From positions 40,858 to 104,857 of IMG/VR virus record IMGVR_UViG_3300025133_000042: a stretch of DNA of 64,000 nt; one strand, given 5' to 3'. The stretch is from a virus. Both the position numbers and the translations under genes were made by a program. The notes beneath the pieces are model-generated. The model searched no databases and was not told the origin of the DNA. It saw only the letters and a program-made list of their open reading frames with translations. Of the stretch, positions 1,704-49,770 are shown one piece after another (position 1 is the first letter of the stretch; the number at the start of each line of letters is the position of its first letter).

Positions 1704-3269
1704 TTATTCCTCTATCACTGCAGCTGCAGTAGTTATCAGAGTCGAAGAAACGCTAACAGCGTTAGCCAAAGCATTTCTTGTCACCTTCACAGGATCAATG
1801 ATTCCAGCATCATACATGTTAACTAGGTCGTTTCTAGCGAAATCCCACCCAACGTCTAAGTCTGTAGAATCAAGCTTGTTGAGGATGACCTCGTAGCTAA
1901 GATTTGCATTATTTGACATCTGCTTAAGAGGCGCGATGAGGCCATTTCTGACGATTAAAGCGCCCGTCAGGCGGTCACCGGACAGATCGTCTGTGGCAAA
2001 GTGCCGGCAGCGCAAGAGCGCGACGCCTCCGCCGGGGACGACGCCTTCTTCCTGCGCGGCTGTGACGGCTTCGAGAGCGTCCTCAATCCTATGTTTTTTC
2101 TCTACCATTTCAACATCTGTTGAAGCGCCGACTTTAATAACAGCGACTCCAGAAGCTAATCTGGTGATTCTTTGTTGCGTCCTTTCACACTCAACAATAT
2201 CGTCAATCTGTCTAACCAGCTCTTTGAGCATTTCAATTCTTTCTTGAATCACGTCGTTGTTGCCCAAGCCGCCGACAAAAGTAGTTTTGTTCTTTAGAAT
2301 TTCAACGCTCTTACATGTTCCCAGGTCAGACATTTGCACATCTGCCAAGAGTTTGTCTTTCTTCGCGGAGACAAAAGTAGCGCCAATAGACAGTGCCAAG
2401 TCTTCCAAGGCTTCAGTTCTCTGCTCTCCGTAGCCGGGAGCTTTTACTGCAGCGACACGCATGGAGCCACGGACGGTATTCATGATAAGCGCTGCGAGAG
2501 CCTGGCCCTCAATTTGCTCGGCAACAACAACGAAGGGCCGGCCGTCGCGGGCGGCTAATTCCAGCACTGGGAGGATTTGAGCCACTTGGTCTATCTTATG
2601 ATCTGTGACCAGGACCAAGCACTCGTCGTACTCAACGGCCGCTCGTCGTTGGTTTGTAATAAAAGAAGTAGAAAAGTATCCAGAATCAAACTGAAATCCC
2701 TCGATAACATCAAGGGAGGTGTCAAGCGATTTGGCTTCTTCAACTGCGATGGCTCCGTTGTTACCAACCATCTCTACAGCCTCGGCAATGAGCCGGCCAA
2801 TAGTTTCGTCGCCATTTGCTGAAATAGTCGCGACGCTCTCAATCTCCTCCAGAGACTCAACATGCCGGGCCATTCCTTTGAGTTCTTCGAGGACGCGGCG
2901 TAGAGCCATATCCATGCCGCGCTTAAGTTCGACAGTACTCGCGCCCGCAAGAATATATTTCTGTGCTTCGTTGAGAAGCTCGCGGGCCAGGACGGTCGAA
3001 GTAGTAGTGCCGTCTCCAGCATTGGTGTTTGTCTGTGACGAAGCCTGCTTTAAAATCTGTGCTCCAGTATTTTCAATCGGGTCATCCAAATCGACAAACC
3101 TAGAGACTGTCACACCATCTTTGGTAATAATGGGCATGCCATCTTTTTGTTTTAAAATGACGTTGTTCCCGCGAGGACCCAGCGTGCACGCAACCAAATC
3201 AGCCAGCTTATTCGCGCCGGCTAATACTCTAGAATTAAGCTCCTGGCCGGAGCTACATATCTTTGACAT
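1704..3269 (-). CDS. groL: GroEL-like chaperonin (60 kDa, Hsp60)
   Basis: A 521-aa group I chaperonin that should form a ring ATPase folding viral and/or host proteins with a GroES-type lid. It has the TLGPRGNNV nucleotide-binding segment (residues 29-37), the DGTTTSTVL motif (86-94, with the Asp matching E. coli D87), the IEDAL segment before EEGVVPGGGVALL (E. coli D398 region), and a C-terminal AGIIDPVKVTRNAL. The usual GGM-rich C-terminal tail is absent and the protein stops at AAAVIEE, somewhat shorter than E. coli GroEL (548 aa). A GroES-like gene lies at 15.0-15.3 kb. The gap upstream (3270-3322) contains a possible promoter. Confidence 0.97.
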   Translation of the reverse strand: MSKICSSGQELNSRVLAGANKLADLVACTLGPRGNNVILKQKDGMPIITKDGVTVSRFVDLDDPIENTGAQILKQASSQTNTNAGDGTTTSTVLARELLNEAQKYILAGASTVELKRGMDMALRRVLEELKGMARHVESLEEIESVATISANGDETIGRLIAEAVEMVGNNGAIAVEEAKSLDTSLDVIEGFQFDSGYFSTSFITNQRRAAVEYDECLVLVTDHKIDQVAQILPVLELAARDGRPFVVVAEQIEGQALAALIMNTVRGSMRVAAVKAPGYGEQRTEALEDLALSIGATFVSAKKDKLLADVQMSDLGTCKSVEILKNKTTFVGGLGNNDVIQERIEMLKELVRQIDDIVECERTQQRITRLASGVAVIKVGASTDVEMVEKKHRIEDALEAVTAAQEEGVVPGGGVALLRCRHFATDDLSGDRLTGALIVRNGLIAPLKQMSNNANLSYEVILNKLDSTDLDVGWDFARNDLVNMYDAGIIDPVKVTRNALANAVSVSSTLITTAAAVIEE

Positions 3270-4774: not shown

Positions 4775-5455
4775 TCAGACGATAATATCTGCGATTCCCA
4801 AATCAACTGCTTGCTGGGCGTCGAGATATACATTTGTCTTCTTGGCCATCAACTTTTTGATGTAGGCAGGAGTCATGTCTGTCTCGGCGGCGAGGGCGAG
4901 GGCATATTGTTTCTGTGTGAACTTCGTCTCAGCAAACTCGTTCTCCATATCAGCAATATGCCCGCTGTGGCCTGAGTTGACTCCATGAATCATGACGCGG
5001 CAATGCTTGCCAATCTTCCTCTGTCCTTTCGTGCCTGCAGCAAGAAGAAGCACGCCGGCGGACATGACCTTGCCAATGCCACAAGTAACGACTGGGATTG
5101 TTTCTCTCACGTATCTTATCACGTCGTATACTGAAAACATCTCCGAGGCTTGTCCGCCATAGGTACTAACATAAAACTCAATGGGGCCAGGCTCTTCTTC
5201 AGCTGGGTCTTGCATGATGTCCTTCTGAAAGAGGAGGAGGCTAAAAACAGCTTCCTGGGCCTTGATTTCGTTGACATCTCCATAAATACCCGTCATATGC
5301 ACTGGCCTCGGAGCCGCGGCTAGCATATCCATGATCATGCCCTTGTCTTCTTCGGGTGGATTTTCAGCGGTATCCGGGACGTGCGGGCCAGGGTCCGAGT
5401 CCGAGTCCGAGTCCTTGGTGCCTCGACGGCTGGGCTTGGTTGTCTTGGTAATCAT
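4775..5455 (-). CDS. clpP: ClpP-like serine protease
   Basis: A 226-aa protein with the ClpP fold signature: FYVSTYGG (94-101), the nucleophile region GKVMSAGVLLLAAG with Ser132, the RVMIHG segment with His157, and the terminal AVDLGIAD. The third catalytic residue is not evident: by alignment to E. coli ClpP the Asp position falls on Ala204/Lys205. The first about 40 residues are an Asp/Ser/Pro-rich extension not found in bacterial ClpP. Phage ClpP-like proteins can be prohead proteases, but a gp21-type protease is present at 49.8 kb, so this copy may act in proteolysis during takeover. It starts at an ATGA overlap with the upstream gene. Confidence 0.88.
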   Translation of the reverse strand: MITKTTKPSRRGTKDSDSDSDPGPHVPDTAENPPEEDKGMIMDMLAAAPRPVHMTGIYGDVNEIKAQEAVFSLLLFQKDIMQDPAEEEPGPIEFYVSTYGGQASEMFSVYDVIRYVRETIPVVTCGIGKVMSAGVLLLAAGTKGQRKIGKHCRVMIHGVNSGHSGHIADMENEFAETKFTQKQYALALAAETDMTPAYIKKLMAKKTNVYLDAQQAVDLGIADIIV

Positions 5456-8921: not shown

Positions 8922-9196
8922 TATAATACTCCATTTTCTTTCTCTACTTGTTCGATAATTGATTGAGCTTTGTTCCAGCAATCTGGACAATATAGTCTTA
9001 CAACTTTTTGCTCCTCTCTCACGATCACATTCCATGTCGTTACGTGCTCTTTCGATTTTTTATCAAAAGGCGCAGCACACGCTGCACATTCGTCGTCAAG
9101 CATATCAAACATCATTAGCTTCTTGGCCATTTGCTTTTCTGCTTTCTTCTGCTTTTTTAAGACGTTGCGCGCCATTTTTCTTTTTAAGCTTCCCAC
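8921..9196 (-). CDS. Small zinc-ribbon-like hypothetical protein
   Basis: Basic, Lys-rich N-terminal helix (residues 5-30), then two CxxC pairs (ECAAC about 38-41 and YCPDC about 75-78) separated by a beta-like stretch, consistent with a four-cysteine zinc ribbon. The GTG at 9196 overlaps the DnaE stop (TAGTG); an ATG at 9175 (MARNVLKK) is an equally possible start. Located between dnaE and dut; role unknown. Confidence 0.75.
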   Translation of the reverse strand: MGSLKRKMARNVLKKQKKAEKQMAKKLMMFDMLDDECAACAAPFDKKSKEHVTTWNVIVREEQKVVRLYCPDCWNKAQSIIEQVEKENGVL

Positions 9197-12100
9197 TAGC
9201 CTAGCATCCTAAACGTGTGGCGAATTGATCGGGTGCTAAACCCCCAGTCTTCGCTATATTGAAGCTTTGCGGCATAAGGCCTGTTGATGTAAATATGATC
9301 ATCATCTTTAATCCCCCAGCACTTAATAGAGCTTGTCGTTGAAGTGTCGTCGATGACCTTGACAATCCAATAAAGCTTGTCATTTTTAGTTTTCTTGGGA
9401 ATGATTTCTCTCGGTATGAACCAAGAGATGCCCAAATCCTCATCGTAGTTGCCCAGCGGCGGGACCATGTTTCTGTTGATGGCCTCTCGGATTCTCTTAG
9501 TCAGGACCAAATCGAAAGGAAACATACCAGTAAGAGAAGAGACAAAATCAATCTTCTCTTCTCTCGTAAAATCCTCTTCTGGGGCGTATAAATTAATGTT
9601 TTCTTCCAGCTTCTTCTGACTCTTTGGCTTGTCTTGGATGCATGACATCCAAAAATGCTTGCAGCCAGTAAACCTCTCGTCGACTAATGAATCTAAAGCA
9701 CCGCTGCGACAGAGCACATCTAGTGCTTTTTTGTTCAATTTTGAATATACGATCTCTTCATTATATAGCAACTCCTCGACAGTGGTAAAAGGACGATTGT
9801 TGAGAATCTGCTCAACAGCCTTTTCGCCTAGGCCCTTGATGGAGCTGAAAGGCTGGATGAGGGTCTTCCCATCGCCTGCAATCTCCCATTGTTCAGTCGA
9901 GGTGTTGATGTTGATCTGCTCAATATTAAACCCATGTTTCTGAGCAAGGCTAATAGCTGCCTCTTTGCGAGATTCTGGCTCTTTGTCAAGGAAAGCTGCA
10001 GCCCAGCACTCAGGATAGTAGTTAAGAAGCCAGGCGCACTGGAAAGACAAGATTGAGTATGATACCGCATGCGACTTGTTAAAGCCATAGCCAGAGAAGT
10101 ACTCAAATTTCTGCCAAAGGCCTTGTGCCGTTGACCGATCGATGCCCTTCTCGACGCAGCCGGCAATAAACTTATCATAAATCTTGTTTTTTGCCTGTGC
10201 CCCCTTACCTGTACCTTTCTTGGTAAGGAGCTTGCGCAGCGCGTTGCCTTCATCCATTGTCAAATCCTTACCCAGCTTGTGAGCAAGAAGCGCAATCTGC
10301 TCTTGGAAAATCAAGAACCCTGCAGTTTCTTCGGTCACTCCTTTATCTAAGTCATTGAGATAATTAATCTCCTCAGGGCTGTGCTTGGCCTTAACATACC
10401 GCTTGTCCACTCCTGCGCTCAGGGGGCCTGGTCGATAAATAGAAGTAATGGCCGAGATATCAATAATATCTTTTGGCTTTGCGCGCTTGCAAAACTTTTG
10501 GGCTCCAGCGTTTGTAAACTGAAAAACGCCCATGAAATTTCCCTTTTGGAAAATGTTCTCATATACTTTTTGATCACTGAGATCGATCTTATCTGGGTGG
10601 AGCTTGGAATCATAATACTCCTTAATATCTTGGAAGGAGGGATTCTCGTTTCCATGGTATCGTTTTAAAACATGCCCGACTGCAGATTGGATCATCTCCA
10701 GGGTAGAGAGGCCGAGCAGATCAAACTTAATAAAACCCAAAGGCTCAAGGTGTCTAACGTTCTGGCCTTCCGACCAGGGCGTCTGGACAACCCCCTTCGA
10801 GCAGATAAGAGGCATGTGCCTGTCAAGATCTTCTCCAATCACGACGCCGCCGGCGTGGCGGCTCGTGGACCTCACTTGTCCTACTAGTGCTTCGACATGG
10901 GTCTTGATATCGGGATACTTGTCTAGAAACTTAATCAGCGAATCGGAATACTTCATCACCTCCTCGAAAGTTGGAATGTACATTCCTGCGCGAATGCCAT
11001 GATCTGCCTTTGCTTTTGGGGTTGCCTCCCTCACCATTCTTCCGGTGACAGAGTTGACCTCGACGAAAGGTACGTCGTAGAGCTTGCTAATATCCTTAAT
11101 CAACGAACGCAACTGAAGTGTGTTGAAGTTTGAAATGGGCACGACAGTTGTGTCTCCCCATTCCTTGGCAAGAATTTCTTTAAGCCCGAATGCATCGCTA
11201 ACATCGTAATCAATATCAGGATAGTCGGTCGCATCCGAGCGCAGAAAGCGGCTGAACAGAAGGCCATACTTAATCGGATCTACCTGAGTAATCCCAAGCG
11301 CGTACGCGACAAGAGAGCCCGCAGCGGAGCCGCGGCCGGGTCCGGAGAGCATGTGCTTGTTTGCCATGTCGCTAATCGCCTTCATGGTTAGGAAGTATTT
11401 GCTAAACCCCCTCTCGTTAATAACTGTAAGTTCATGCTTAAGACGGTCAATATATTCTTTGTTGTTGTCGAAGCCAAGCTTGCGAAGGGCAGCGATGGAC
11501 TCTTTGATGAGCGTCTCCTCTGCATCAGCGCCGGAAGGGACAACGAATCCAGGCAAGCGTACTGTGTCGTCTGGCATAAAAGCCTCAATTCGCTCATTCG
11601 CAATCCAGTGGGTTTTCACGAGAGAGTCATAAATCAAGTCATCATCATACTCAACGCCACACTCTTTGGAATACTTCTTATAGGACTCCCACATCTGATC
11701 GCCGTTCTTGGGGTATAGCTCCATGCCCATCTCGTCAACGTCAACTGGAAGTTCAGACTTGAGATATTCGGGCTTGTTCTTCGATTTACCAAGCCAACCT
11801 AAGCGCTTATAAAGCTCTCGGTCTTTCCAGGCAGCGGCGCTTGGGTAATGTGAATCAGCAGTAGAGATAAGGTCAATGTCAAACTCCTCATGCATCTGGA
11901 TGACATATTTATTTAGCTCGTGCTGCTCTGGTACATTGTTCCATTGCAGCTCGCCATACCAGCGGTCTCCAAGACAATCCATCATCTTGCGTGTGGTGGC
12001 CCTCATGGCGCCCAGGACTGCTTCAGGGCCGTCGTCGCGATTGTTCCAATAGTCTTTGGCGTAAACGCCGCCAAGACACGCAGAAGAGGCAATAACTCCC

Positions 12101-12627
12101 TCGCCATGCTCCTTTAAGAGCTTGTAGTCTAGCCTAGGCTTGCGATAGAAGTTATCACCCTGGTGAGAGTCAGAAACTATCTTGAAGATATTGTTCAAGC
12201 CAGTCTGATTCATAGCTAGCAACACAAGATGACCGCTATTATTAAGTTTGCTGGACTTGCCCTTAGAAGCCGTTTCGTCTTCTGCTTCGACTTTATCTGT
12301 GTCGTTGATGACCTTACGTGCTTGCTTCTTATCTTCTTTAATTCGATCGTACTCTCCCCTCCACTCCTCGATGGAGGCAATAAAATAGGCCTCGACGCCG
12401 AAGATTGGCTTAAAGGTCTTGCCTTGGGACTGCATCTTCTTTGCATGCAGAACCTGATAAGACAGACCATTCATGTTCCCATGGTCTGTCAAAGCAAGGG
12501 CCTCCATGCCATTTTCATATGCAAAGTCCATATGGTCTTGCGGATATCCAAAACCATCGAAGACCGAACCAGCAACGCTGTGTGCGTGCAAACCCACGAA
12601 GGGAATCTTACTCTCTTTTCTATTCAT
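9196..12627 (-). CDS. dnaE: DNA polymerase III alpha subunit (DnaE-type, C family)
   Basis: About 1143 residues, essentially full length against bacterial DnaE (about 1160). Visible in order: an N-terminal PHP domain (GLHAHSVAGS, LALTDHGNMNG), the palm GRGSAAGSLVAYALG, the catalytic pair in PDIDYDV, the third acidic residue in KFDLLGLSTLEM, then YRPGPLSAG, LIFQEQIALLAHKLG and a helix-hairpin-helix (IKGLGEKAVEQIL). All catalytic aspartates are present, so it should be an active replicative polymerase. The ATG at 12627 (MNRKESK) has AGAGG upstream; ATG at 12645 and TTG at 12696 are less likely. C-family polymerases are uncommon in T4-like viruses, which normally use family B. Confidence 0.95.
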   Translation of the reverse strand: MNRKESKIPFVGLHAHSVAGSVFDGFGYPQDHMDFAYENGMEALALTDHGNMNGLSYQVLHAKKMQSQGKTFKPIFGVEAYFIASIEEWRGEYDRIKEDKKQARKVINDTDKVEAEDETASKGKSSKLNNSGHLVLLAMNQTGLNNIFKIVSDSHQGDNFYRKPRLDYKLLKEHGEGVIASSACLGGVYAKDYWNNRDDGPEAVLGAMRATTRKMMDCLGDRWYGELQWNNVPEQHELNKYVIQMHEEFDIDLISTADSHYPSAAAWKDRELYKRLGWLGKSKNKPEYLKSELPVDVDEMGMELYPKNGDQMWESYKKYSKECGVEYDDDLIYDSLVKTHWIANERIEAFMPDDTVRLPGFVVPSGADAEETLIKESIAALRKLGFDNNKEYIDRLKHELTVINERGFSKYFLTMKAISDMANKHMLSGPGRGSAAGSLVAYALGITQVDPIKYGLLFSRFLRSDATDYPDIDYDVSDAFGLKEILAKEWGDTTVVPISNFNTLQLRSLIKDISKLYDVPFVEVNSVTGRMVREATPKAKADHGIRAGMYIPTFEEVMKYSDSLIKFLDKYPDIKTHVEALVGQVRSTSRHAGGVVIGEDLDRHMPLICSKGVVQTPWSEGQNVRHLEPLGFIKFDLLGLSTLEMIQSAVGHVLKRYHGNENPSFQDIKEYYDSKLHPDKIDLSDQKVYENIFQKGNFMGVFQFTNAGAQKFCKRAKPKDIIDISAITSIYRPGPLSAGVDKRYVKAKHSPEEINYLNDLDKGVTEETAGFLIFQEQIALLAHKLGKDLTMDEGNALRKLLTKKGTGKGAQAKNKIYDKFIAGCVEKGIDRSTAQGLWQKFEYFSGYGFNKSHAVSYSILSFQCAWLLNYYPECWAAAFLDKEPESRKEAAISLAQKHGFNIEQININTSTEQWEIAGDGKTLIQPFSSIKGLGEKAVEQILNNRPFTTVEELLYNEEIVYSKLNKKALDVLCRSGALDSLVDERFTGCKHFWMSCIQDKPKSQKKLEENINLYAPEEDFTREEKIDFVSSLTGMFPFDLVLTKRIREAINRNMVPPLGNYDEDLGISWFIPREIIPKKTKNDKLYWIVKVIDDTSTTSSIKCWGIKDDDHIYINRPYAAKLQYSEDWGFSTRSIRHTFRMLG

Positions 12628-12667
12628 ATTTGCCTCTGCAGACATTATAGAGACACAAAAGAGGAAA

Positions 12668-12868
12668 TCAAACAGAAAGTGAATTATCTTTTTCAAAGAG
12701 GTAGAGACCAGTCTCTTCTAGGTTCAGCCTCTTTGGGATGGCTGCAAGCGGAAGAAGGCCATGAATGACAAAGACCAGGCCGGTGAGAAGCAGGCGCGCT
12801 CCAATTCCGCATGCAAAAAGTAAATGCTCCAGATATGACATATTTTTCTCTTGTAAGTGTTTAAACAT
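12668..12868 (-). CDS. Small membrane protein, DUF6356-like
   Basis: A 66-aa protein with a hydrophobic core (residues about 14-43) containing YLEHLLFA and FVIHGLLPLAA, the pattern of the DUF6356 family of short membrane proteins (conserved His in an IHGLLP-type segment). The ATG at 12868 overlaps the end of the upstream gene and has GGAG nine bases upstream. Function unknown; the family is recognised from the pattern only. Confidence 0.65.
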   Translation of the reverse strand: MFKHLQEKNMSYLEHLLFACGIGARLLLTGLVFVIHGLLPLAAIPKRLNLEETGLYLFEKDNSLSV

Positions 12869-15586: not shown

Positions 15587-17443
15587 CTAAATAACCTCGC
15601 AAGACCCTCCCGAACAGGCCAGCTCGCCAGTTAAATTAGTATTGTCATCAAACTCAACAACTTTTGCGATATCAACTTCGCGCAGAGAGCATGCGAGATT
15701 TTCGTACTCTTCCTTTGTACAGTCTTCAAATGGCGCCTGCTTGTACGTGTGGTCCGAAAAAGGCAAAACAGATAGGCCGTTATAAGTCGCTCTGTTCTCC
15801 CACATCCATTCACGAACAACATCCCATTCGTCCTCTCTGATAGAAACAGTCGCAGATACATTATGTGTATTCTGGCCGCGGCCATGGCCGGGGCGGACCC
15901 AATCAGAAGATATTTTCTTAATCCGACGAAGCAAATCCAAGCACCCTTCCTGTCTTGTAATCGCATTCTCTGGGGCCCTCTGGGGAACGGAAATAACAGC
16001 TGTATCATGGGGCCTAAAAAATTCATCCTCAACCAAATCGGCGTTATGAATAGCCAAATGCGTATAGATGGCTTCATTCTTGCCAACACGTAGTCGACGA
16101 ATATAATAGTCGTTATGCCATGCATGGATACCACTAGATGTCCCCAGCGTTAAAGATGTTGTTCCTGCAGGCTTAACACAGGTTGTCCGAGTGGCCGGCC
16201 GAATGTTGATTAAGGACGCGACGCGTCGGTTTTCTCTCCTAACAACGGAAGAAGCCGATTTCATATTTAAATCCAAAACGCGGCCGGAGGCAATACCAGT
16301 CATGGAGACCCCAATAAGCGCATCCTTTTCTGTTGTCCGGCGCCACACGTCGCGGAGATAATGAAAATCAGTATATCCTGCTTGCAAGGTTGCAATGAAG
16401 CTGGCTGCGCGGCAGCGGCTCTCATAGTCCTCTTGGCCGGTAAGATCAGAAGCGTTAACCTCGACCAAGTTGCAAAATTGATATGGCCTGAGGGCGATCT
16501 CGCAACACGGATTCGTGCCCCAGTCTTTGTCGTTTGAAAAATAGAACCCGGGCTCGCCGGCGCCGCTTGCTCTCACTCTTTCCCAAATTGAATTGAAGAA
16601 ATCTTTTGTTATAAGGTGTCGCATGAGGACAACTGAGTTGTTGGCTCTTCCTCGCTGAGGATTTGTCTCCCACCAATCTCCTGTCTTTGCTGCAAGCATT
16701 TCTTCATCTTCTGCGGAAAAAAGTGAAATAAGAGCAGCCCGACGGATCCCCCCGGCAAGAACAGCATCAGCAATATGACAAATGATATCATGCACTTCGA
16801 TAGGCTCAAGCTTGTCACCGCTCTCCTTCGCATCAAGAATTCCTCGTATCTTAAGGAGGCATTCTTTCAACGGTTGAGGGCCGGGAGCTTTGCCTCCAGA
16901 TGTAACTAGTCTGCTGCCTTTCGGACGGATGTCAGAAAAATCAAATTTTAATTTTGATCCGCCTTTAAAGTATGAGTTAACTAAAACCTTTACTGCGTCG
17001 GCCCATCCTTCGATCGAATCACCGATAAGATATCGCCTAGAGCGCTTTGCACTCGGCATCTGAAGTTCCGGGAGCTTATCAACATGGTGCCTTTGAACAG
17101 AATATCCAACACCAGTGCCGCCAAGAAGGAGAAACATGCACTCAGAAAAAGAAGCGACATGATCGATAGGCATATAAGCACAGTTGTATATCCTGTTAGG
17201 TGCCACTTCAATCGGCTTGCCCCCGAATTGCATGGAGCGCATGGATGGTAAAACTTTTTTCGCATAGACGTAATTATAAGCCTCTTCGACTTCAGTCCTT
17301 AAATTCGGATACTTCTTAAGGTGCATGGCCTTGTTGCGATCGACTAATTCCTCCCAGGTTTCACGTCTGTCTTCCTGCTTCAGATATCTTGCATATTTCA
17401 TATAAACAGTGATATCTGACAAAATTTTACTAGCTAGGTCCAT
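15587..17443 (-). CDS. nrdJ: Adenosylcobalamin-dependent (class II) ribonucleotide reductase
   Basis: A 618-aa single-chain reductase making deoxyribonucleotides. Visible: NCAYMPID with Cys88, GGTGVGYSVQ (108-117), the radical-cysteine loop NPCCEIAL (311-318), FCNLVEVNASD (323-333), KPAGTTSL, and the C-terminal shuttle cysteines CSGGSC (610-615). The absence of a separate small subunit and the GGTGVGYS and NPCxEI pattern indicate the B12-dependent type, which needs no oxygen. This implies that the host can make or import cobalamin. Preceded by the helicase with a 14-nt overlap. Confidence 0.92.
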   Translation of the reverse strand: MDLASKILSDITVYMKYARYLKQEDRRETWEELVDRNKAMHLKKYPNLRTEVEEAYNYVYAKKVLPSMRSMQFGGKPIEVAPNRIYNCAYMPIDHVASFSECMFLLLGGTGVGYSVQRHHVDKLPELQMPSAKRSRRYLIGDSIEGWADAVKVLVNSYFKGGSKLKFDFSDIRPKGSRLVTSGGKAPGPQPLKECLLKIRGILDAKESGDKLEPIEVHDIICHIADAVLAGGIRRAALISLFSAEDEEMLAAKTGDWWETNPQRGRANNSVVLMRHLITKDFFNSIWERVRASGAGEPGFYFSNDKDWGTNPCCEIALRPYQFCNLVEVNASDLTGQEDYESRCRAASFIATLQAGYTDFHYLRDVWRRTTEKDALIGVSMTGIASGRVLDLNMKSASSVVRRENRRVASLINIRPATRTTCVKPAGTTSLTLGTSSGIHAWHNDYYIRRLRVGKNEAIYTHLAIHNADLVEDEFFRPHDTAVISVPQRAPENAITRQEGCLDLLRRIKKISSDWVRPGHGRGQNTHNVSATVSIREDEWDVVREWMWENRATYNGLSVLPFSDHTYKQAPFEDCTKEEYENLACSLREVDIAKVVEFDDNTNLTGELACSGGSCEVI

Positions 17444-18803
17444 TTTTTCTTTCCTTCTTGAATTGTTTGTAGTGTTCTGTTAGGCTTTTTGCTAACTGCC
17501 GTGGTGAGCTACTCTGGTTTATAACAGAAGGATCAATAGGTTCCAATACTTGGAGTGTAACATTGCTTGTGTCGATATGCATAGGGAACACTAGGCCGTC
17601 GGGGCCGTTGCGATTTTTTGCAACAAACATTCTTGCAGTATTCGCATTTTTGTCCCTGATTGTCCTTGAAATAGAACAAATAAAGTCCGCTACAAAACAC
17701 TTGTTAAACGCCTCCGAAATAGATTCCATAGTTACAACTTCTGCGTTCAATCCAGTCCTGTTTGTTTGGGATGCCGTCCACAGCGGGCACTTGTTTTCTT
17801 GCGCAATTGCCCTAAGGTCTTCATAAATAGACTCTAGTTCATTCCTTTTCTCCTTGAAGTTTGTGCAGCTTCGGAGCAAATCAGCGTAATCTACTATAAT
17901 CATGTCGATTTTTTGATTTTGTTTTTTTAATTTTTCTATATGAGATCTGATAGTATTGGGCGAGGCCGTTTTGGTCGGATACTCTTTAATAATCAATCGA
18001 CCTGGAATATCAGCAATGGCCTCCATGACCTCGTCCTTTCTATTAAAAAGAGTCGACAGAGGAATTCCGGATATGCAACTATCATATCTCTGACCAGTAA
18101 TTTCTTCGGAAAGCTCTAATGTGTAGTGCACTACATTTTTTCCAGTCTTAACGGCTTGGACGCCGAGGTGCGCTAGCGCCATAGATTTGCCGGCGCCCGT
18201 TGGTGCAATAACAACTCCCAGCTCGCCGGTCCCTAAGCCGCTCTTTGTCAATTTATCAATTCTGCTCCATCCAGTGGTAATCGGATTTCGTATTTTAATT
18301 TCATATCGGCGCTCAAAGTCTTTAATAAAGTCATGACCAAAGTCATTGTCCATGCCAAGCTTAAGTGCGTTGTCAATCACATTCTTGACTTCATCATAAG
18401 ATGAATTTTGAACCAGATCAACAGATTGTACCAAGGCCTCTTTCAGCTTTTGCCTCTTGCAGAAATCAAGAGAAGTAGATTTAATATACTTCTCGTCTGG
18501 AATACTGTTCTTTATCAACAGTCGGGCAAAATAATCTCGAACCTGCTTTTGGGTCGATTCATTCTCGTTATCCATCTCGGTGCGCAAAATCGTTGCCAAT
18601 GTCTGCTTCGTTGGATGGACGCCATATTCATTACGATAATCAAACAGCTTCTTGATAAACACCCTCAGGTATTTAAGCTCGAAAAAGTTAATATCTACAA
18701 TTTCTTCCATTTGATCCGCGAATGGACGATCTTCAATTATTAGATGAAGAAGGTCCTCTTGGAATCTCTTTCCATATTTTGAAAAGTCCGCTTCTAGTTT
18801 CAT
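17430..18803 (-). CDS. 41: Replicative DNA helicase (DnaB / T4 gp41-like)
   Basis: A 457-aa RecA-fold hexameric helicase. Walker A APTGAGKS (200-207), Walker B MIIVDYADLL (301-310), the arginine-finger/H4 region with ASQTNR and a terminal KNRNGPDG segment match the DnaB/gp41 family. The N-terminal about 150 residues are helical, as in primase-interacting domains. It would unwind DNA at the fork ahead of the DnaE- or PolA-type polymerase. No primase is seen in this window. The start has AGAGG upstream. Confidence 0.92.
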   Translation of the reverse strand: MKLEADFSKYGKRFQEDLLHLIIEDRPFADQMEEIVDINFFELKYLRVFIKKLFDYRNEYGVHPTKQTLATILRTEMDNENESTQKQVRDYFARLLIKNSIPDEKYIKSTSLDFCKRQKLKEALVQSVDLVQNSSYDEVKNVIDNALKLGMDNDFGHDFIKDFERRYEIKIRNPITTGWSRIDKLTKSGLGTGELGVVIAPTGAGKSMALAHLGVQAVKTGKNVVHYTLELSEEITGQRYDSCISGIPLSTLFNRKDEVMEAIADIPGRLIIKEYPTKTASPNTIRSHIEKLKKQNQKIDMIIVDYADLLRSCTNFKEKRNELESIYEDLRAIAQENKCPLWTASQTNRTGLNAEVVTMESISEAFNKCFVADFICSISRTIRDKNANTARMFVAKNRNGPDGLVFPMHIDTSNVTLQVLEPIDPSVINQSSSPRQLAKSLTEHYKQFKKERKNGPS

Positions 18804-18836: not shown

Positions 18837-19802
18837 TTAGTTGTCTAGACACATCTTGTTGAAGTGTGCAAATAGATCAATAAAGTTTGATTCGCCAAAG
18901 CTATCCTTGGCCATCATCGTGATAAGCTTGGTTTTTGAGTACTCAAAAGAAAACCCCTTAACAACCTCCCGAATGTGCTTTTTGGCGCCAATGGTCAACA
19001 AAGGGGCGTACAGCTGCATCATTTGGTAGTTTCTATCCAGAATGTGCTGCTTATCCAGCACAGTCTGGTAGATTTTCACATTAGATTTTCTAGATGTTTC
19101 CTCAGCGAAATCCAACACATCGCTAAGTGTTGCTGACTTGTCTTCACAAAGAAAAGGAAATCGCTTAGCCACGGTCTTCAGTCCAGCGCCTCCGATACCC
19201 TCAAGATTGTCCGATTTGTCGCCGGCCATTGCACGGGCCATGGCAAAATTGCAAGGGTGAATGTCGAACTTTTCAACAATTTTGTTTTTATTAAGAATTT
19301 CTTTCTGGATTGGCCGGTAAAGCACAGTCTTGTCATCCAAGAGTTGAAAGAAATCTTTATCGCTCGATACAATAATTTTCTGATGATCTGAAAGCTCCGG
19401 CATTTGGCAGAGATGCGCAATGATATCGTCAGCTTCAGTTGACTTAAATTTAAATTGCACTATTGGCATCTCATTATAAAATTCAATAATCCTAGTTTGC
19501 TGCCAGAGCTTGTTCTCAAACTCTTCTTGCTCAGAAAGATTTCTAATTGCTCGATTCAAGCGGATTGCTTTACGGCCGGCTTTGTAGTCTTTCTTGATAG
19601 ATTTTCTTTTCGCGGAGCCGCCTTCGCCATCCCAACAGATGTAAATTTCATCTGGCTTCGTCTCTCGAACTAGCTTTTGAAGCGACTGTATGCACCCCTT
19701 TAGGCCGCCGATGGGGTTGCCATTAGTTGAAATGCTGGGGTTAACAATATAGTTGCGAAAAAAAAGATTTAGCTGATCAATTATCAGCACTCTTTGTGTC
19801 AT
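18837..19802 (-). CDS. 5'-3' exonuclease / flap nuclease (T4 RNase H-like)
   Basis: A 321-aa PIN-like nuclease. N-terminal VLIIDQLNLFFRNY carries the first metal-binding Asp. EADDIIAHL, VSSDKDFFQLL and the H3TH region AMAGDKSDNLEGIGGAGLKT supply the other acidic residues and the DNA-arching helix. It should remove RNA primers and 5' flaps, and fills the role of the 5' nuclease domain missing from the PolA-like protein at 26-27 kb. The ATG at 19802 has AGAGGA upstream, overlapping the previous gene by 26 nt; the longer frame from 19874 is unlikely. Confidence 0.9.
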   Translation of the reverse strand: MTQRVLIIDQLNLFFRNYIVNPSISTNGNPIGGLKGCIQSLQKLVRETKPDEIYICWDGEGGSAKRKSIKKDYKAGRKAIRLNRAIRNLSEQEEFENKLWQQTRIIEFYNEMPIVQFKFKSTEADDIIAHLCQMPELSDHQKIIVSSDKDFFQLLDDKTVLYRPIQKEILNKNKIVEKFDIHPCNFAMARAMAGDKSDNLEGIGGAGLKTVAKRFPFLCEDKSATLSDVLDFAEETSRKSNVKIYQTVLDKQHILDRNYQMMQLYAPLLTIGAKKHIREVVKGFSFEYSKTKLITMMAKDSFGESNFIDLFAHFNKMCLDN

Positions 19803-20142
19803 TGAGGTCCTCTCTGTAAATTCTACTTTTAAACTGTTTTGCACGGGTGACCAGGAACGAATATACGCCATCAATTTTTAGCGCTTCGGCTGACATCCTG
19901 CTGATGTGCCTTTTTAATGTAGGCTCCAAGATAAAAAATTTAACCTTTAAAATAGTTCTTTCTACTGTTTCAGAAACAGGCTTCGCTGGTTCAACAACCG
20001 TCGTTGTTGTGATACCGCAAACGCCTCTTAGATTGTCAGTCAGAACTGTTAAATTCTTAGATCGATCGGACCTTAAAACGACAGTAGCTACATAGAGTTG
20101 GTCTCTAAAGACTTCTAATATGAGATCTTTCAAATTCTGCAT
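19777..20142 (-). CDS. Hypothetical protein, 121 aa
   Basis: Not recognised. Two beta-rich stretches (LYVATVVLRSD and ERTILKVKFFILEP) flank a Thr/Val segment (CGITTTTVVEP), compatible with a small ferredoxin-like fold; it ends in a basic tail. The ATG at 20142 follows GAGGG and was preferred to the ATG at 20157. Co-transcribed with the exonuclease. Confidence 0.7.
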   Translation of the reverse strand: MQNLKDLILEVFRDQLYVATVVLRSDRSKNLTVLTDNLRGVCGITTTTVVEPAKPVSETVERTILKVKFFILEPTLKRHISRMSAEALKIDGVYSFLVTRAKQFKSRIYREDLNDTKSADN

Positions 20143-20926: not shown

Positions 20927-22036
20927 TTATTCCTCTTTATCAATATCATAAAAGCTAGATGCATCTGCCTCTCTCTTTTCAAACTTTAATATAACCTCGT
21001 CGTCCATCAAAGTCAATACGCGGGTCCTAAATTTCTCACTTTTTAGCTTTTCCATCCATCTAGAAGCTTGAAATTTCTCAGAAGTTCCATCTTCATAGAT
21101 CAGGTTGTACCATGCGCCTTTCTGTTCGACGCTTTTAGAGCCTTTAATCGCCTCGAACCAGCTTTCTTCATCTTGAATGCCGATTCTGCTCCCCCACATA
21201 ATCTTGAAAGTGCATTGGCGGCCTTCGGTGCCAAAGCGACTCTTTTTAAGTGTCACTTTTACTTCCGAACCCACCCTAAAGCCATTCTCATCCAACAAAA
21301 AGCTGGCCTTGGCTTTACGCTTGGTCAGCCAAATGCGCAGAGAATAAGCATAATGCATTGCTTTCCCGCCCGGGGTTACGTAGGGCTCGACCATAGCCTC
21401 CGAAGGACTTCTTGTGATATTCGTCTTAAGCTGATTAAGCACGAGCAACGTTGATTTGCTATCGGCAATCGGAATCGCCAATTTGGACATTCCCTTTGCC
21501 AGAATACGAGCCTTGACTGCCATGGACGACTGTGGATTAAAATCTCCCTCGACGTCGCTAATGGCAGGCGTTAAGGCAAGGCTATCCCAAATAAATAGCA
21601 TTCTGTTGTCATTTGACCCTAGAAGCTCTTCGACGGTCTCCAGAACAAACTCCACACTTTGCGCCTGCACGTACAACAAATTATCTAAGTCGCAGCCCGC
21701 GTTACTCAAAAAAGTGGGATCGATGGCGGACTCAGAATCAAAATAAATGACATCAATACCCATCTTTTGGGCGTTTGCAGCAACTTGTGCTGCCATATAA
21801 GACTTTCCAGACCCTTCGAGGCCTGCAATTTCAACAATTTTGCCGAGTGGGACGCCTGCGAGGCGGCCCCTGCAAATCATTGAATCGAGCCAACGAGATC
21901 CAGTACCAATCCAATCGGTTACTTCTGTTGGATTTTCTTCTTTCAAATCGTAGGCAACATGCATGCCTGCTTTCTTGTTGATGAGAGTCCTCATCTCATC
22001 TAAATTCAACTTACCAAGTTTCTTTCTCTTCGCCAT
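20927..22036 (-). CDS. uvsX: UvsX-like (RecA family) recombinase
   Basis: A 369-aa strand-exchange ATPase. Walker A GLEGSGKS (72-79), the YFDSESAIDP segment (98-107), Walker B LFIWDS (147-152) and LLVLNQLKTNI (about 196-206) are in RecA/UvsX order, with TPGGKAMHYAYSLRIWL following. It would coat gp32-covered single strands and drive recombination-dependent replication together with gp46. Its start overlaps the end of the small membrane gene upstream by 26 nt. Confidence 0.93.
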   Translation of the reverse strand: MAKRKKLGKLNLDEMRTLINKKAGMHVAYDLKEENPTEVTDWIGTGSRWLDSMICRGRLAGVPLGKIVEIAGLEGSGKSYMAAQVAANAQKMGIDVIYFDSESAIDPTFLSNAGCDLDNLLYVQAQSVEFVLETVEELLGSNDNRMLFIWDSLALTPAISDVEGDFNPQSSMAVKARILAKGMSKLAIPIADSKSTLLVLNQLKTNITRSPSEAMVEPYVTPGGKAMHYAYSLRIWLTKRKAKASFLLDENGFRVGSEVKVTLKKSRFGTEGRQCTFKIMWGSRIGIQDEESWFEAIKGSKSVEQKGAWYNLIYEDGTSEKFQASRWMEKLKSEKFRTRVLTLMDDEVILKFEKREADASSFYDIDKEE

Positions 22037-22826: not shown

Positions 22827-22868
22827 AAGGCCTCTGTAAACCCAGGCCTTCCTGCGGGATATAGCTAC
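22827..22868 (-). repeat. Post-stop hairpin element, copy B
   Basis: Nearly identical to copy A, beginning at the ParB-like stop codon (TAG CTATATCCCGCAGG, then the AAGGCCT/AGGCCTT hairpin at 22827-22850). Lies directly upstream of the FKBP ribosome-binding region. Confidence 0.75.
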
Positions 22869-23806
22869 TTGCCTAGAATATCTTCTAGTTCGTCAATATA
22901 AGACTTGAAAATTTTATTAAAAGCCCTCTTGGAGATTTGGTGGTCCTTGCACGTGCTCTGAAAATGCTTCAAAAATCCAACGGCAATAGACTCTGCGGCC
23001 CTGTTGGTCACATTGCCACCCTCTCTCTTATAATGTGTGGTAAAACTCCTTGCGTTCTTATGGTAGTTGACCGCACCATCAAAATAGGAAATAAAAGCCT
23101 CTTTCGCATTGGAGCGGCTATGCAGATCGGTGTTTTTGTAGATCAAAGCCATGGCGTGTAAAAGCTCTGCTTGACAGCTAGACTGCTCGGGCCATGTGCT
23201 TGTGTACAGCTTAGCCGCACGTTCCAGCGCTTGCAAATTGGTTGCAGCCAGCGCTTTTCGAAAAGCCTGAATCTTGACTCGCGTTTCAATCGTAGAGCCT
23301 GTGCAGCCAACAGAACTGCCTTTTTCCCCAGTTCCCATGCTAACAGTAAGTCCACACTTTTCTAGGCACTTTGCTGTTTTTCGTGCCTCGTCGTGGTTGG
23401 CGTGATATTGATGGACAAAAAGCTCTTCGCTGGTAAGACATATCTTGCCGGTCTTATTACGGTGAATAAACAACTCACTAATCTCCCTCTTGTCTTTCAC
23501 CAGACAAACAACAGCTTGCATGGTCTTGTCCTCTGGAAACGCCAGGTTCCAAAGTGCTCGACTGTGATCACCATCAAATAACAGCATCTCGCCGTCGGGG
23601 AGCCTCGCCACATGAGGGGGGTCCCACAAGCGCATATCAAATCCTAGCAGTCCGCCAACATACTGATTGAGTGCTTTTGTGGTTGTCTTTCTATTGAGAT
23701 ATGAATCGATATCAACAGAAACCTGCTCAATCGTTGGCTTCTTACTATAAGTGATCTTAAAATTATTCTGCAACGTAACTTCGTTGCCGTATATTGTTTT
23801 AGACAT
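22865..23806 (-). CDS. ParB/sulfiredoxin-fold nuclease-like protein, 313 aa
   Basis: Residues about 60-110 contain PPHVARLPDGEMLLFDGDHSRALW, split here as DGEMLLFDGDHSRAL, followed by AVVCLVKDKREISELFIHRNKTGK. This is the ParB N-terminal (DGxHR-type) signature seen in many phage ParB-like proteins. The C-terminal 150 residues are helical and unassigned. It could be a DNA-binding or nicking protein; a partition role is not implied. The gene is bounded by hairpin copies B and C. Confidence 0.65.
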   Translation of the reverse strand: MSKTIYGNEVTLQNNFKITYSKKPTIEQVSVDIDSYLNRKTTTKALNQYVGGLLGFDMRLWDPPHVARLPDGEMLLFDGDHSRALWNLAFPEDKTMQAVVCLVKDKREISELFIHRNKTGKICLTSEELFVHQYHANHDEARKTAKCLEKCGLTVSMGTGEKGSSVGCTGSTIETRVKIQAFRKALAATNLQALERAAKLYTSTWPEQSSCQAELLHAMALIYKNTDLHSRSNAKEAFISYFDGAVNYHKNARSFTTHYKREGGNVTNRAAESIAVGFLKHFQSTCKDHQISKRAFNKIFKSYIDELEDILGK

Positions 23807-24350: not shown

Positions 24351-25103
24351 CTAAGAACCAAGAAGCTCGTTAAAAGCAGCGTCAACTTCGGTTACCTGCG
24401 TGGATTTATTGTATCGACTTGACTCGCTTGAAACCTCCTCTGCGTCCTCTTCGTTTAAGAGGAATTCATCAAGCATTCCTTGAACCTCCTGCGGCGTCTT
24501 GCGAGAATTCTCAAAAACCACATTAAAATCAGGCACTTGGTCCAACATCGAGGAGATGGTATCTTCATCGCCGGCGAGTGGGGATGATTTACGACGGGGC
24601 GTGATAGTTGTCTGCGGGAACTGTGCGCCGGGAGGCTTTCCGTAGGTAAGAACAAGGTCAGTGCCCTCGTTAACATCAGTAATGTCTCCATACTCAGGAT
24701 TCAATACCAAGTTGAGCAGCTCCTTGTAAGCCATCTTGCCAAATCCCCAAAGGCGTACGCCTTGGTCTTCCTCACCGCGGACGAGAACGGGAGCGAAAAA
24801 GCGCTGACGGGCGCTCAAATTCTTTGCCATCTTGACGGCGTCATCTGACCCGTCGCGATAGAGTTGACGAACAAAATCATCCAAAGGATCTTCCTCTCCA
24901 AAGTTCTTCTTCGGGCTTAAAAAGCTTGCGTTCTTGCCCAAGTTGTAATGGAACCAGTACTCCTTAAACGGGTCGCCGTCAGAAGTGGGAACAATGCGAA
25001 TTGTCTGCTCTCCGTCCTCTGGGCGCCAAAAAGCACTCTTTCCGTTGCCGCGATTTTCCAAGGCCTCGCGCTTTGCCTTCATCTTCTCTAAATCAATACC
25101 CAT
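24351..25103 (-). CDS. 32: Single-stranded DNA-binding protein (T4 gp32-like)
   Basis: A 250-aa protein with the N-terminal basic segment (LEKMKAKREALENRG), the first OB-fold strands KSAFWRPEDGEQTIRIVP and FKEYWFHYNLG, and the WGFGKMAYKELL segment typical of gp32 relatives in marine T4-like phages. The C-terminus is acidic (NEEDAEEVSSE) as needed for protein-protein contacts. The T4 zinc-binding Cys/His cluster is absent. It should cover single-stranded DNA at the fork and load UvsX. The 5' leader holds a strong hairpin, relevant because T4 gp32 represses its own translation. Confidence 0.87.
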   Translation of the reverse strand: MGIDLEKMKAKREALENRGNGKSAFWRPEDGEQTIRIVPTSDGDPFKEYWFHYNLGKNASFLSPKKNFGEEDPLDDFVRQLYRDGSDDAVKMAKNLSARQRFFAPVLVRGEEDQGVRLWGFGKMAYKELLNLVLNPEYGDITDVNEGTDLVLTYGKPPGAQFPQTTITPRRKSSPLAGDEDTISSMLDQVPDFNVVFENSRKTPQEVQGMLDEFLLNEEDAEEVSSESSRYNKSTQVTEVDAAFNELLGS

Positions 25104-25186: not shown

Positions 25187-26026
25187 CTATGAAAATAAAT
25201 TTTCATTTTGTATGATAGTCGCCGAATGGGTCGTAAAAACATAATCATTTTCATACTTTGTAGCATAAATGCTGTATGACGCTCTGACGTTTTCATTAGA
25301 AGTAGATTTAATTTTTTGATTTATTTTCTTAAGCAGGCCAGGCGTCTCTGCGATCTTAGATTCGCTAAGGGCGAATATGTACTCCTTCTCGCGCACGTAA
25401 TTTAATTTATAAAACAAGCTTTCATCATTTGTGTCAAAATTCATCTGCCCTATTGTTTTGATTTTAGCTGTAAGAGGCGGTTCCGACGAGATGGACATCA
25501 CGGGAGCAGAGTGACTGAAAATATTCATCATGTGGATGGTGTTCACTATGGCTTGATTTATCGAGTTCCAATATTCACTGAGAGTTGTGTCTCCCACTAT
25601 TCCTTCCATCTCTAAGTTTGAGATGAGAATAATCTGCTCCAACAAGCCCGATCTTGTATATTCTTGAAGTATGTTTCTAACCGCGAACTCTCTCTTTTTC
25701 GCATCTGGCGAAAGCATTTCGACATCAGGCTGGATATAAGCGACAGAAAGGCTATTGCCTTTTAGGCCCTCAAGCAACCTCAGTGCAGCGCCAGTTATGT
25801 TTCCTGAGCCTGCGAGGACGAGACACACAGCACCAAGCTTGTCGCCAAACTTAATGCGACGAAATCTTTTCTCATAGTCTTCCATGCTGACTTGCTCTTT
25901 AATCTTTTTAAAGCTTTTATAGCCCTTGTTGGCTGTGTCGACACAAAAAGTATTATATTGTGGGTGCTGAGCAAAAAGATTGGCGATCTTGCAGCCGGCC
26001 TCGCCGAGACCGATAATTGTTTCCAT
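25187..26026 (-). CDS. Tubulin/FtsZ-like GTPase superfamily protein
   Basis: A 279-aa protein whose N-terminal half follows the FtsZ/tubulin nucleotide domain. It has a first strand and loop IIGLGEAGCKIANLF (4-18), FCVDT (27-31, like FtsZ NTD), and a glycine box LAGSGNITGAALRLLEGL (71-88, in place of GGGTGTGAAP). Then SLSVAYIQPD, KKREFAVRNILQEY, and EYWNSINQAI with Asn157 at the guanine-contact position of helix H7. The catalytic T7-loop NxDxxD is not evident, so GTP hydrolysis may be lost. It might form filaments or be a regulatory relative. Encoded directly before the SSB, ATG start. The fold is inferred from motif order only. Confidence 0.65.
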   Translation of the reverse strand: METIIGLGEAGCKIANLFAQHPQYNTFCVDTANKGYKSFKKIKEQVSMEDYEKRFRRIKFGDKLGAVCLVLAGSGNITGAALRLLEGLKGNSLSVAYIQPDVEMLSPDAKKREFAVRNILQEYTRSGLLEQIILISNLEMEGIVGDTTLSEYWNSINQAIVNTIHMMNIFSHSAPVMSISSEPPLTAKIKTIGQMNFDTNDESLFYKLNYVREKEYIFALSESKIAETPGLLKKINQKIKSTSNENVRASYSIYATKYENDYVFTTHSATIIQNENLFS

Positions 26027-26055: not shown

Positions 26056-26403
26056 TCAGGCTTGGGCTGTTTTGGCGGCCATCTTGGCACGGCGTTTGGC
26101 CGTCGCGGCTTGCTCGCCGCCAAGACGAGATACGTCGGATTTAATATTAATTCCTAGATAATCAGCAATAAGAGTTAAATACTGTCTTTTCTCTACGTCG
26201 CTAGCGCGTTCTTTAAATATGTCCATATGCGTCTGAGCGCGACTCATCATCTTCTCGAACGCTGTCGTTACCGCGGTTTTTGAGGCGTCGCGGCCTGAAA
26301 CTGCAGTCGGTGGAGCGCCTAGGCGATCGGCGGGCTCGGCCTCTAACAAGCCAGAGATTTCTTCTTTGATAATCTGTTTAAGTCGTTTTTTTGTCATGCT
26401 CAT
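26056..26403 (-). CDS. Hypothetical protein, 115 aa, probably late
   Basis: Starts MSMTKKRLKQIIKEEISGLLEAE, an amphipathic N-terminal helix similar in style to those of the acidic protein at 5.9 kb and the 49.3 kb late gene. The C-terminal end is Ala/Lys-rich (KRRAKMAAKTAQA). A copy of the putative late-promoter motif lies 20 nt upstream, across the polA stop codon. Unknown function; it may be a minor virion or DNA-associated protein. Confidence 0.7.
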   Translation of the reverse strand: MSMTKKRLKQIIKEEISGLLEAEPADRLGAPPTAVSGRDASKTAVTTAFEKMMSRAQTHMDIFKERASDVEKRQYLTLIADYLGINIKSDVSRLGGEQAATAKRRAKMAAKTAQA

Positions 26404-26422: not shown

Positions 26423-26436
26423 CACTATAAATAGGC
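26423..26436 (-). promoter_or_regulatory. Putative late-promoter motif (CCTATTTATAG)
   Basis: Minus-strand GCCTATTTATAGTG, which includes the TAG stop of the PolA-like gene, 20 nt before the ATG at 26403. Because it coincides with codons for Ala-Tyr-Leu-stop, it could be chance. Confidence 0.35.
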
Positions 26437-27612
26437 CGATAAGTTCTTTAAGTCCCCGTAATTTTTACCGGCGCTTAAACTAGCTCTAAACTTGCCAAAC
26501 TGTGTATCAGAGAATATTTCAATCATGTCTTTTAGAATATCGCGGTCTGAATCACTGAAGTCGATAACAGCACTATCATGCACACAAAAAGAAATATACG
26601 ACTTTCTACCTTTTAACATTTTATCAATTTTCATAAGCTGTGTCAAGAACAAATCGCTTGTTGTGCTCTGAACAAGATAGTTCAGCGCTTTGTGATCTGT
26701 TGCCGCTATTCTTCTTCCGAATGGTGTGTGGACAAACCCATCGTAATAATACTCATCTAAAACCTGCTCTCTGCTAAAAACCGCTTCAAGCTTCTTGTTG
26801 GAAGCTTTCGGGTTGTAAAGCCATGCAAAGACTTTCTTTTTAACCTCATCCCTTGTTTTCTTGCCCTTAAAGACAGTTTCCCCAATCCACTCATGGATGT
26901 CCCCTTCAGGCTGGGAAGCGCCGTTAAGGGCCAATAAAGTGCGTAATTCGGCGGCATTATAGTCAATCTCGACAAACCAATCGTTGTTAGGCCGGATAAC
27001 ATGGCGATGTCGCTTATCTAGCGTCAGAATAGGAAAGCTGGATGTCTTTGTCGTGAGCCTTCCGGTGGTACTTTTCCACTGATCATACAAGATACTCGCT
27101 TGGCCAGAGTCAATTTTGTTTTTCAACTTACGACCGGTCAAACTAGCCAGATTTATATCCTTTGCTGAGAGATTTAATCTCTGATTCGACATTTTTGTCA
27201 CCATTCTTGCTAGATCAACAAGAAAATCATAATTTTCTGGCTTTTCGATTGTGTCAAAGACGTGCTTGGAGATTTTATTTTTCATTTCGCAAAGCTTAAT
27301 TAAGTAATTTTTTGGCACCAAATCGTAAAAACAAACATCATTCAAATCAACCTTACAAGTTGCAAAAGCTTTAATAAAAGCCATTCCTTTTTTGTGCAAG
27401 ATATCGTATTCATCCTTGAGATCGACGGGGCATGCTTGCTGAAGGCTGCTTCCCAGAGACCAAATATGCGCATACAAAATTTCTTCGCCTTGAACGTGTT
27501 CAGTGTATGCCCAAGTTTTTTGCAAATCTAGATCGGTGGTGTCATAATGCAGCTCGTTGTTGCAATAAACGGCATGACATTCTTGCTTTTCGTCAAATGC
27601 TTGAAAAAACAT
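26425..27612 (-). CDS. Family A DNA polymerase, polymerase domain only
   Basis: A 395-aa PolA-type catalytic domain without 3'-5' or 5'-3' exonuclease domains. Visible: STTGRLTT (181-188), motif A FVEIDYNAAELR (213-224), motif B with R254, K258, F262 and Y266 in the same 4-residue spacing as E. coli Pol I R754/K758/F762/Y766, YLVQSTTSDLFL, and motif C CVHDS (343-347; the usual VHDE Glu is Ser). All positions needed for nucleotide binding and both metal aspartates appear present. It is much shorter than Klenow (605 aa). A similar stand-alone polymerase domain is known in Rhodothermus phage RM378. GTAAGGAG precedes the ATG. Confidence 0.88.
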   Translation of the reverse strand: MFFQAFDEKQECHAVYCNNELHYDTTDLDLQKTWAYTEHVQGEEILYAHIWSLGSSLQQACPVDLKDEYDILHKKGMAFIKAFATCKVDLNDVCFYDLVPKNYLIKLCEMKNKISKHVFDTIEKPENYDFLVDLARMVTKMSNQRLNLSAKDINLASLTGRKLKNKIDSGQASILYDQWKSTTGRLTTKTSSFPILTLDKRHRHVIRPNNDWFVEIDYNAAELRTLLALNGASQPEGDIHEWIGETVFKGKKTRDEVKKKVFAWLYNPKASNKKLEAVFSREQVLDEYYYDGFVHTPFGRRIAATDHKALNYLVQSTTSDLFLTQLMKIDKMLKGRKSYISFCVHDSAVIDFSDSDRDILKDMIEIFSDTQFGKFRASLSAGKNYGDLKNLSAYL

Positions 27613-49124: not shown

Positions 49125-49352
49125 TTACCTCTCTCCGTTGCATGGGTTTCTCAAAGCTTCTGCTTTTTGAGCATTTCGCTTCTTTTTGAGCTTTTCTCTT
49201 CTTCTTTTCGTTGAGGGCTTCTCATAGAACCTCTTATCCAGGAATCTCTCAACAACTTTTTCTTTCTTACATTTTTTAATGAATCTTTTTATTAGTCTTG
49301 TCTGGTCGCCTCTGCAATCTTTCAAGCGAACTACAACGTTTGCGCTAGCCAT
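49125..49352 (-). CDS. rpsU: Ribosomal protein bS21 homologue
   Basis: A 75-aa basic protein. The segment KRFYEKPSTKRRREKLKKK (about 40-58) is the bS21 signature (E. coli has REFYEKPTTERKRAK), and the N-terminal VVVRLKDCRGDQTRLIKRFIKKC matches the preceding helix. bS21 sits near the mRNA exit and helps initiation. Phage bS21 homologues are known and could be inserted into host 30S subunits to favour viral messages. The gene overlaps the upstream stop by 8 nt and lies inside the head operon, so it is made late. Confidence 0.88.
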   Translation of the reverse strand: MASANVVVRLKDCRGDQTRLIKRFIKKCKKEKVVERFLDKRFYEKPSTKRRREKLKKKRNAQKAEALRNPCNGER

Positions 49353-49770
49353 TATTTACCAACTTGCTCCAATTATTACTTGCCAGCTTCATTATTCCAG
49401 CTATATCTACACCAGAATCTTTTGGTGAATAGCCAGACAACGGGTTGGCGCCTGATTTTGCTTCGGGAGGTATCTCCTCCACTCCACTAAATAGATCCAC
49501 ATTTCCAAAACCAACTGATTCATTTAATCTTTTAATTCTTTCTTGTCGTTGGGCTTCCATCTCTGTAGAGCGCCGGTCGAGATCTTGTTTCGTTGGTCGA
49601 GCCTTCTTGGGACTCTCTACCGTAAGGCCTTCGACAACAACTTTTTGTGTACTTAAGCCTTGCGCAACTTCTGTTACTATTCCAGATAAAACGCCCTCTT
49701 CAAAAATGCACTCTTTTATACACTCTTTTATAAGGGGTTTAAGTATTTTTTTTAATTCTGTTTTATTCAT
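49345..49770 (-). CDS. Hypothetical late protein, 141 aa
   Basis: Starts MNKTELKKILKPLIKECIKECIFEEG, an amphipathic helix like other late proteins here; the rest is charged, with a Ser/Gly-rich C-terminus. It sits between prohead protease and bS21. It may be a small prohead core protein that is processed by the protease; no motif proves this. Confidence 0.68.
   Translation of the reverse strand: MNKTELKKILKPLIKECIKECIFEEGVLSGIVTEVAQGLSTQKVVVEGLTVESPKKARPTKQDLDRRSTEMEAQRQERIKRLNESVGFGNVDLFSGVEEIPPEAKSGANPLSGYSPKDSGVDIAGIMKLASNNWSKLVNNG

Follow-up and report, generated by a model that had tools for sequence, protein, structure and literature searches.

The stretch of viral DNA analysed here (the window) is 64,000 nucleotides long and was taken from a virus record of 104,857 bases. 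It contains a gene, here called F, that lies within a cluster of replication genes on the minus strand. The features of the cluster are as follows.

25187..26026, minus strand: F, a predicted tubulin/FtsZ-fold protein of 279 amino acids with an ATG start (assigned from the predicted structure and a profile alignment)
24351..25103, minus strand: gp32-type SSB, the invariant downstream neighbour of F (Pfam gp32, E 1.2e-13; PHROG SSB, E 8e-24)
26056..26403, minus strand: a gene of 115 amino acids between the polymerase and F, found at only one other locus (L019) and outside the conserved unit
26425..27612, minus strand: short family A DNA polymerase (PolA-type, 395 amino acids; PolA below), upstream of F in nearly all relatives
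20927..22036, minus strand: UvsX/RecA-type recombinase
18837..19874, minus strand: 5'-nuclease (T4 RNase H-like; PHROG exonuclease)
17430..18803, minus strand: DnaB-type replicative helicase

The SSB gene begins 83 bp downstream of F, and the wider context is T4-like, with genes for a tail sheath, portal, major head protein and terminase in addition to DnaB and UvsX/RecA. Nucleotide genes, a ribonucleotide reductase among them, are found close to F in the window, and a dCMP deaminase-like gene was detected in some but not all of the loci that carry F.

Several other features of the window were recorded. The phage carries two polymerases, the family A enzyme at 26425-27612, in which motif C reads HDS and not HDE, and a large PHP-type enzyme resembling DNA polymerase III alpha at 9196-12696. 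A complete GroEL chaperonin gene is located at 1704-3269 (PHROG, E 6e-136) and a putative ClpP-like protease gene, recognised by reading only, at 4775-5455. A protein of 313 amino acids (22865-23806) that appears ParB/nuclease-like by eye gave no match in Pfam or PHROG and occurs in few relatives (L026, L035). The 115-residue protein at 26056-26403 has an N-terminal KRLKQIIKEEI-type segment which by eye is like short leader-like segments of other genes of this virus (for example at 49345-49770), and is possibly a shared targeting or assembly tag.

The F protein contains all of the motifs listed in the preliminary description, and in the order quoted there: GLGEAG (residues 6-11), FCVDT (27-31), AGSGNITGAA (72-81), IQPD (98-101) and EYWNSINQAI (151-160). 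Searches of the window protein against Pfam, PHROGs, NCBIfam, PADLOC and the PDB sequences gave no match, and no relatives were found among 50,697 phage records queried with the window protein and a hand-made consensus; three matches with E values of 7-9 from the latter search were dismissed as noise. No description of the family was found in the open-licence literature. Relatives were obtained from IMG/VR, where a protein-pattern scan gave four at 35-36% identity, and the alignment of these was used for a wider search. Besides the marine T4-like source virus, hundreds of related viral contigs carry the family (at least 259 IMG/VR loci that passed a tblastn check). The best 80 of 259 were kept, and an alignment of 71 distinct F sequences (A2) was built from IMG/VR. 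Ten residues are invariant in all 71 sequences (G6, G8, G11, Y24, Q121, R125, S126, M166, N168 and Y258). The median dN/dS of F was 0.066 over 28 close pairs, indicating strong purifying selection. PolA (0.062) and SSB (0.054) gave similar values, and UvsX (0.031) a lower one. The low dN/dS, together with a family alignment containing invariant residues, identifies F as a selected protein and not a chance open reading frame.

A cellular origin of F was considered and rejected. The sole match in a genome was in the WOR-3 chromosome record CP070664 (L086, 5500-11000), in which PolA, F, SSB and UvsX lie on a phage piece between runs of N, making this metagenome-assembled genome a chimeric scaffold and the match not a host gene; F was absent from the other 146 genomes of the WOR-3 phylum. 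The canonical FtsZ sequences encountered in phage records were mostly short, unannotated or misfiled, resemble bacterial contamination and are not relevant to F.

Predicted fold of F

The structure of F was modelled with AlphaFold2 using alignment A2, giving a pLDDT of 92.1 and a pTM of 0.90. The model has the two-domain tubulin fold, and when it was compared with the PDB using Foldseek, a check proposed in the preliminary description, the 50 best matches listed were all FtsZ or TubZ, with a best E value of 2e-13. The TM-scores against these structures were 0.61-0.72 (by query length) over approximately 315 columns, which cover both domains. Among viral models (BFVD) the best match was A0A6J5RW92 (TM 0.77, E 8.6e-13), followed by other phage proteins named as tubulins or cell-division proteins.

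Profile comparison pointed in the same direction. Alignment of A2 with a profile of 27 FtsZ proteins using hhalign gave 157 columns with an E value of 4.9e-5, a probability of 67.6 and a score of 42.8, while the controls, consisting of reversed profiles, neighbouring phage proteins and 40 column shuffles, scored at most 21.3. The alignment pairs GLGEAG of F with GVGGGG of FtsZ and GSGxISGA with FtsZ GGGTGTGA; N137 is paired with the Asn of the FtsZ IPN motif and N157 with the guanine-contact position of H7. The window protein gave no hit at the curated cut-off of Pfam PF00091, for which the best family member had an E value of 0.003, and no Pfam tubulin family match was obtained in the whole virus record by a search that detected 13 of 14 control genomes. 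Across A2 there were weak Pfam matches to TrkA_N in 19 of 71 members (best E 8.8e-6) and to Tubulin in 9 of 71 (best E 0.003), and it is the predicted structure that decides between them in favour of tubulin. That F belongs among ordinary Rossmann proteins of the NAD(P) type and resembles FtsZ only superficially, as the greater number of TrkA_N matches might suggest, is highly improbable, because the structural match to FtsZ spans both domains at an E value of 2e-13, no NAD(P)-type fold was present among the 50 best PDB matches listed, and the FtsZ profile alignment continues beyond the Rossmann motif through H7. The preliminary assignment of F to the tubulin/FtsZ superfamily, made from motifs, is therefore supported by the AlphaFold2 and Foldseek results and by the decoy-controlled profile-profile alignment, and on the basis of the model F is almost certainly a divergent member of that superfamily.

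Nucleotide pocket and filament-forming parts

The elements of the predicted structure that correspond to the nucleotide pocket, and the loop that replaces the T7 region, are located in the gene as follows.

25991..26011, minus strand: T1 loop GLGEAGC (residues 6-12); G6, G8 and G11 invariant in 71 of 71 sequences, C12 in 70 of 71
25784..25813, minus strand: T4 glycine box AGSGNITGAA (72-81); family form [GSA]GSGx[IV]SGA, aligned with FtsZ GGGTGTGAA
25724..25735, minus strand: IQPD (98-101); family form YI[KR]PD, aligned near FtsZ T5 (VTKPF)
25514..25582, minus strand: central helix H7 (149-171), motif HMxN; N157 aligned to the guanine-contacting Asn/Asp of FtsZ H7
25463..25513, minus strand: loop replacing T7 and H8 (172-188); no helix and no conserved aspartate

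The pocket residues G6, G8, G11, G73, G75, S78 and N157 are invariant or nearly so in A2. The tubulin signature G-G-T-G-[ST]-G is not found in the family, its central Thr-Gly being lost, and a glycine box of the form GGGxTSGA is retained in a few members. No conserved Asp corresponding to the T7 motif NxDxxD was present at residues 172-188 in the 71 sequences. Secondary structure assignment of the model with DSSP gave a loop at 172-188, a strand at 189-195, a short hairpin and then a strand at 211-221; the second domain of the model has neither H8 nor H9. Since the loop at 172-188 contains neither a helix nor a conserved Asp, F lacks both the T7 motif and H8. The glycine-rich T3 is also absent, with only a short segment separating D30 from the strand at residue 66. 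In the model the chain stops directly behind the final strand and has neither a linker nor a conserved peptide nor an acidic tail. What was noted earlier for the single window protein, an altered glycine box and a missing T7 loop, applies to the whole family of 71 sequences. Taken together, the alignment and the model suggest that F would bind nucleotide but is unlikely to carry out the canonical GTPase and polymerisation cycle.

Conservation and divergence of the cluster

In nearly all of 85 F loci the gene order was PolA-type polymerase, F, SSB, UvsX, 5'-nuclease and DnaB. To avoid the circularity of fetching loci by F, further loci were chosen by SSB alone, which gave 79 new loci, 76 of them with enough upstream sequence. 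F was present in 76 of these 76, usually 50-160 bp before SSB. F belongs to the core genes of a clade of marine T4-like viruses and is situated between the PolA-type polymerase and SSB. The adjacency to gp32 that had been singled out in the preliminary description is real but is not an oddity of this virus; it recurs almost without exception across a large clade of viruses and suggests a link with the replication module.

Cultured relatives, as judged by SSB, have the same cluster without F. In Flavobacterium phage immuto, Microcystis phage Mel-JY01 and their IMG/VR relatives the position of F is filled by an unrelated protein of approximately 150 amino acids (for example L200 1346-1801, L201 4867-5256 and L204-L283; alignments A4 and A5). 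Among the loci examined, F was present in 162, the small protein in 140 and both in none; in loci with neither, no PolA was detected, and many of these end just upstream of SSB. A quick SSB tree of 90 rows separates the loci with F from those with the small protein by one branch (SH-aLRT 100), indicating a single change of occupant in the sampled data. The small protein is not a shortened F, as there is no profile similarity (probability 0.1) and its predicted structure is different, and its model (pLDDT 84) gave no structural match in the PDB. As it has no recognisable function of its own, it gives no hint of the role of F. A gene of 428 amino acids before SSB in the Microcystis phage was considered as a longer form of F and rejected, as it gave no match.

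F is among the least conserved proteins of the cluster, with a median identity to the window of 38%, compared to 45% for PolA, 67% for SSB and 74% for UvsX; F and PolA are both fast-evolving. The pairwise distances of F and PolA gave a partial rank correlation of 0.61 with the other genes removed, a value that none of 300 permutations reached, and 0.58 after the gene upstream of PolA was added. The corresponding correlations with SSB were 0.07 and 0.10, although SSB is equally close on the other side, and that with UvsX was about 0. This pattern suggests functional coupling of F and PolA, or co-transfer of the two neighbours. It is not proof of contact, because UvsX and the 5'-nuclease also co-vary (0.52).

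Role of F and comparison with known systems

Phage tubulins have been described from large-genome phages, where they form filaments used for partition or to centre the phage nucleus (PMC7950403). The F family suggests instead that a cytoskeletal fold has been reused for another job, probably as an aid to viral DNA replication. The favoured reading, to which a probability of roughly 0.36 was assigned, is that F is a nucleotide-binding, non-hydrolysing accessory factor with a tubulin fold that belongs to the polymerase/SSB replication module. F would keep a nucleotide in its conserved T1/T4/H7 pocket, would neither hydrolyse GTP in the canonical way nor form canonical protofilaments, and would act as a monomer or small oligomer. 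Its likeliest partner would be the adjacent PolA-type polymerase, which F could load, clamp or regulate. The accessory subunit of mitochondrial Pol gamma, which reuses a tRNA-synthetase fold, offers a parallel. Given that a large PHP-type DNA polymerase is also encoded in the genome, gap filling or, together with the 5'-nuclease, the completion of Okazaki fragments may be the task of the short PolA. It is doubtful whether F has gone further, leaving the cytoskeleton to become a stable subunit of the viral DNA polymerase or replisome. If it has, this subunit would have become fixed in one major clade of marine T4-like viruses, with an unrelated small protein in its place in the sister clade. 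The low conservation of F counts against an accessory factor in so far as it would equally fit a protein that interacts with the host.

A host-facing protein would be expected to diverge quickly, as F does, and could be an antagonist of host division, a tubulin-fold mimic that adds to the end of the FtsZ filament and blocks the next subunit. A chain terminator of this kind requires the nucleotide (top) face that F retains and the loss of the T7/H8 (bottom) face that F lacks, and unrelated phage inhibitors of FtsZ exist in lambda Kil (PMC3961180), T7 Gp0.4 (PMC13423816) and P1 Icd (PMC11897509). The identity between F and FtsZ is, however, about 11-15%, making mimicry of a contact surface doubtful, and F is a fixed core gene of a replication cluster whose divergence follows that of the polymerase. 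Host-takeover genes are usually accessory and scattered, and this reading is considered unlikely.

The preliminary description had raised a PhuZ-like filament. In such a reading F would be a cytomotive protein similar to PhuZ or TubZ, with an atypical longitudinal contact, that positions or separates replicating phage DNA as known phage tubulins do (PMC7950403, PMC4244570); genome positioning would suit the proximity to replication genes, and the glycine box of phiKZ PhuZ, read from its translation, is also non-standard. The idea is weakened by the family-wide loss of the T7 aspartates, H8, T3 and the C-terminal tail, since T7 mutations in PhuZ abolish GTPase activity and yield non-dynamic filaments (PMC7950403). 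A non-exhaustive scan of neighbouring genes recognised none that was TubR-like, and a filament appears rather improbable.

Conservation of the pocket after loss of the catalytic and filament parts, with ribonucleotide reductase and other nucleotide genes nearby, could also describe a sensor of nucleotides that regulates the nucleotide metabolism or transcription of the phage and is merely housed in the replication operon. The invariant neighbours of F are however the polymerase, SSB and UvsX, while the nucleotide-metabolism genes are variable, and a sensor is quite improbable.

F represents a large unnamed family, belonging to the core replication genes of common marine viruses, in which the tubulin fold and pocket were kept and the parts for hydrolysis and canonical polymerisation dropped. 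It would be either a tubulin recruited to DNA replication, as favoured here, or a phage-encoded filament or poison of FtsZ that functions in the absence of T7.

When F was compared with known members of the superfamily, the best viral structural match, A0A6J5RW92 (named FtsZ, from an uncultured Caudovirales phage), was a longer protein of 452 amino acids with 18% identity to F. F shares with FtsZ the two-domain fold over approximately 315 aligned columns and the order of T1, glycine box, T5-like strand end, conserved Asn and H7 with its guanine-contacting Asn. It differs in being 11-15% identical, in lacking the T3 GAGA loop, T7 NxDxxD, H8, linker and C-terminal peptide, and in that the window protein is undetected as FtsZ by Pfam, NCBIfam or PDB sequence search. 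TubZ also has the tubulin fold, and TubZ 2xkb was among the best PDB matches of F (E 8e-12), but F lacks the T7 loop, C-terminal helix and tail. Compared with the TubZ cassette, the neighbours of F are a polymerase and SSB, with no TubR recognised beside it among the neighbours scanned. PhuZ, like F, is encoded by phages, has the tubulin fold and carries a non-standard glycine box; the F profile gave no significant match to the single phiKZ PhuZ sequence compared (probability 1.1). PhuZ keeps the T7 aspartates and a C-terminal tail, both of which are missing in F, and is a protein of phiKZ-like jumbo phages, whereas F is located in the replication cluster of T4-like viruses.
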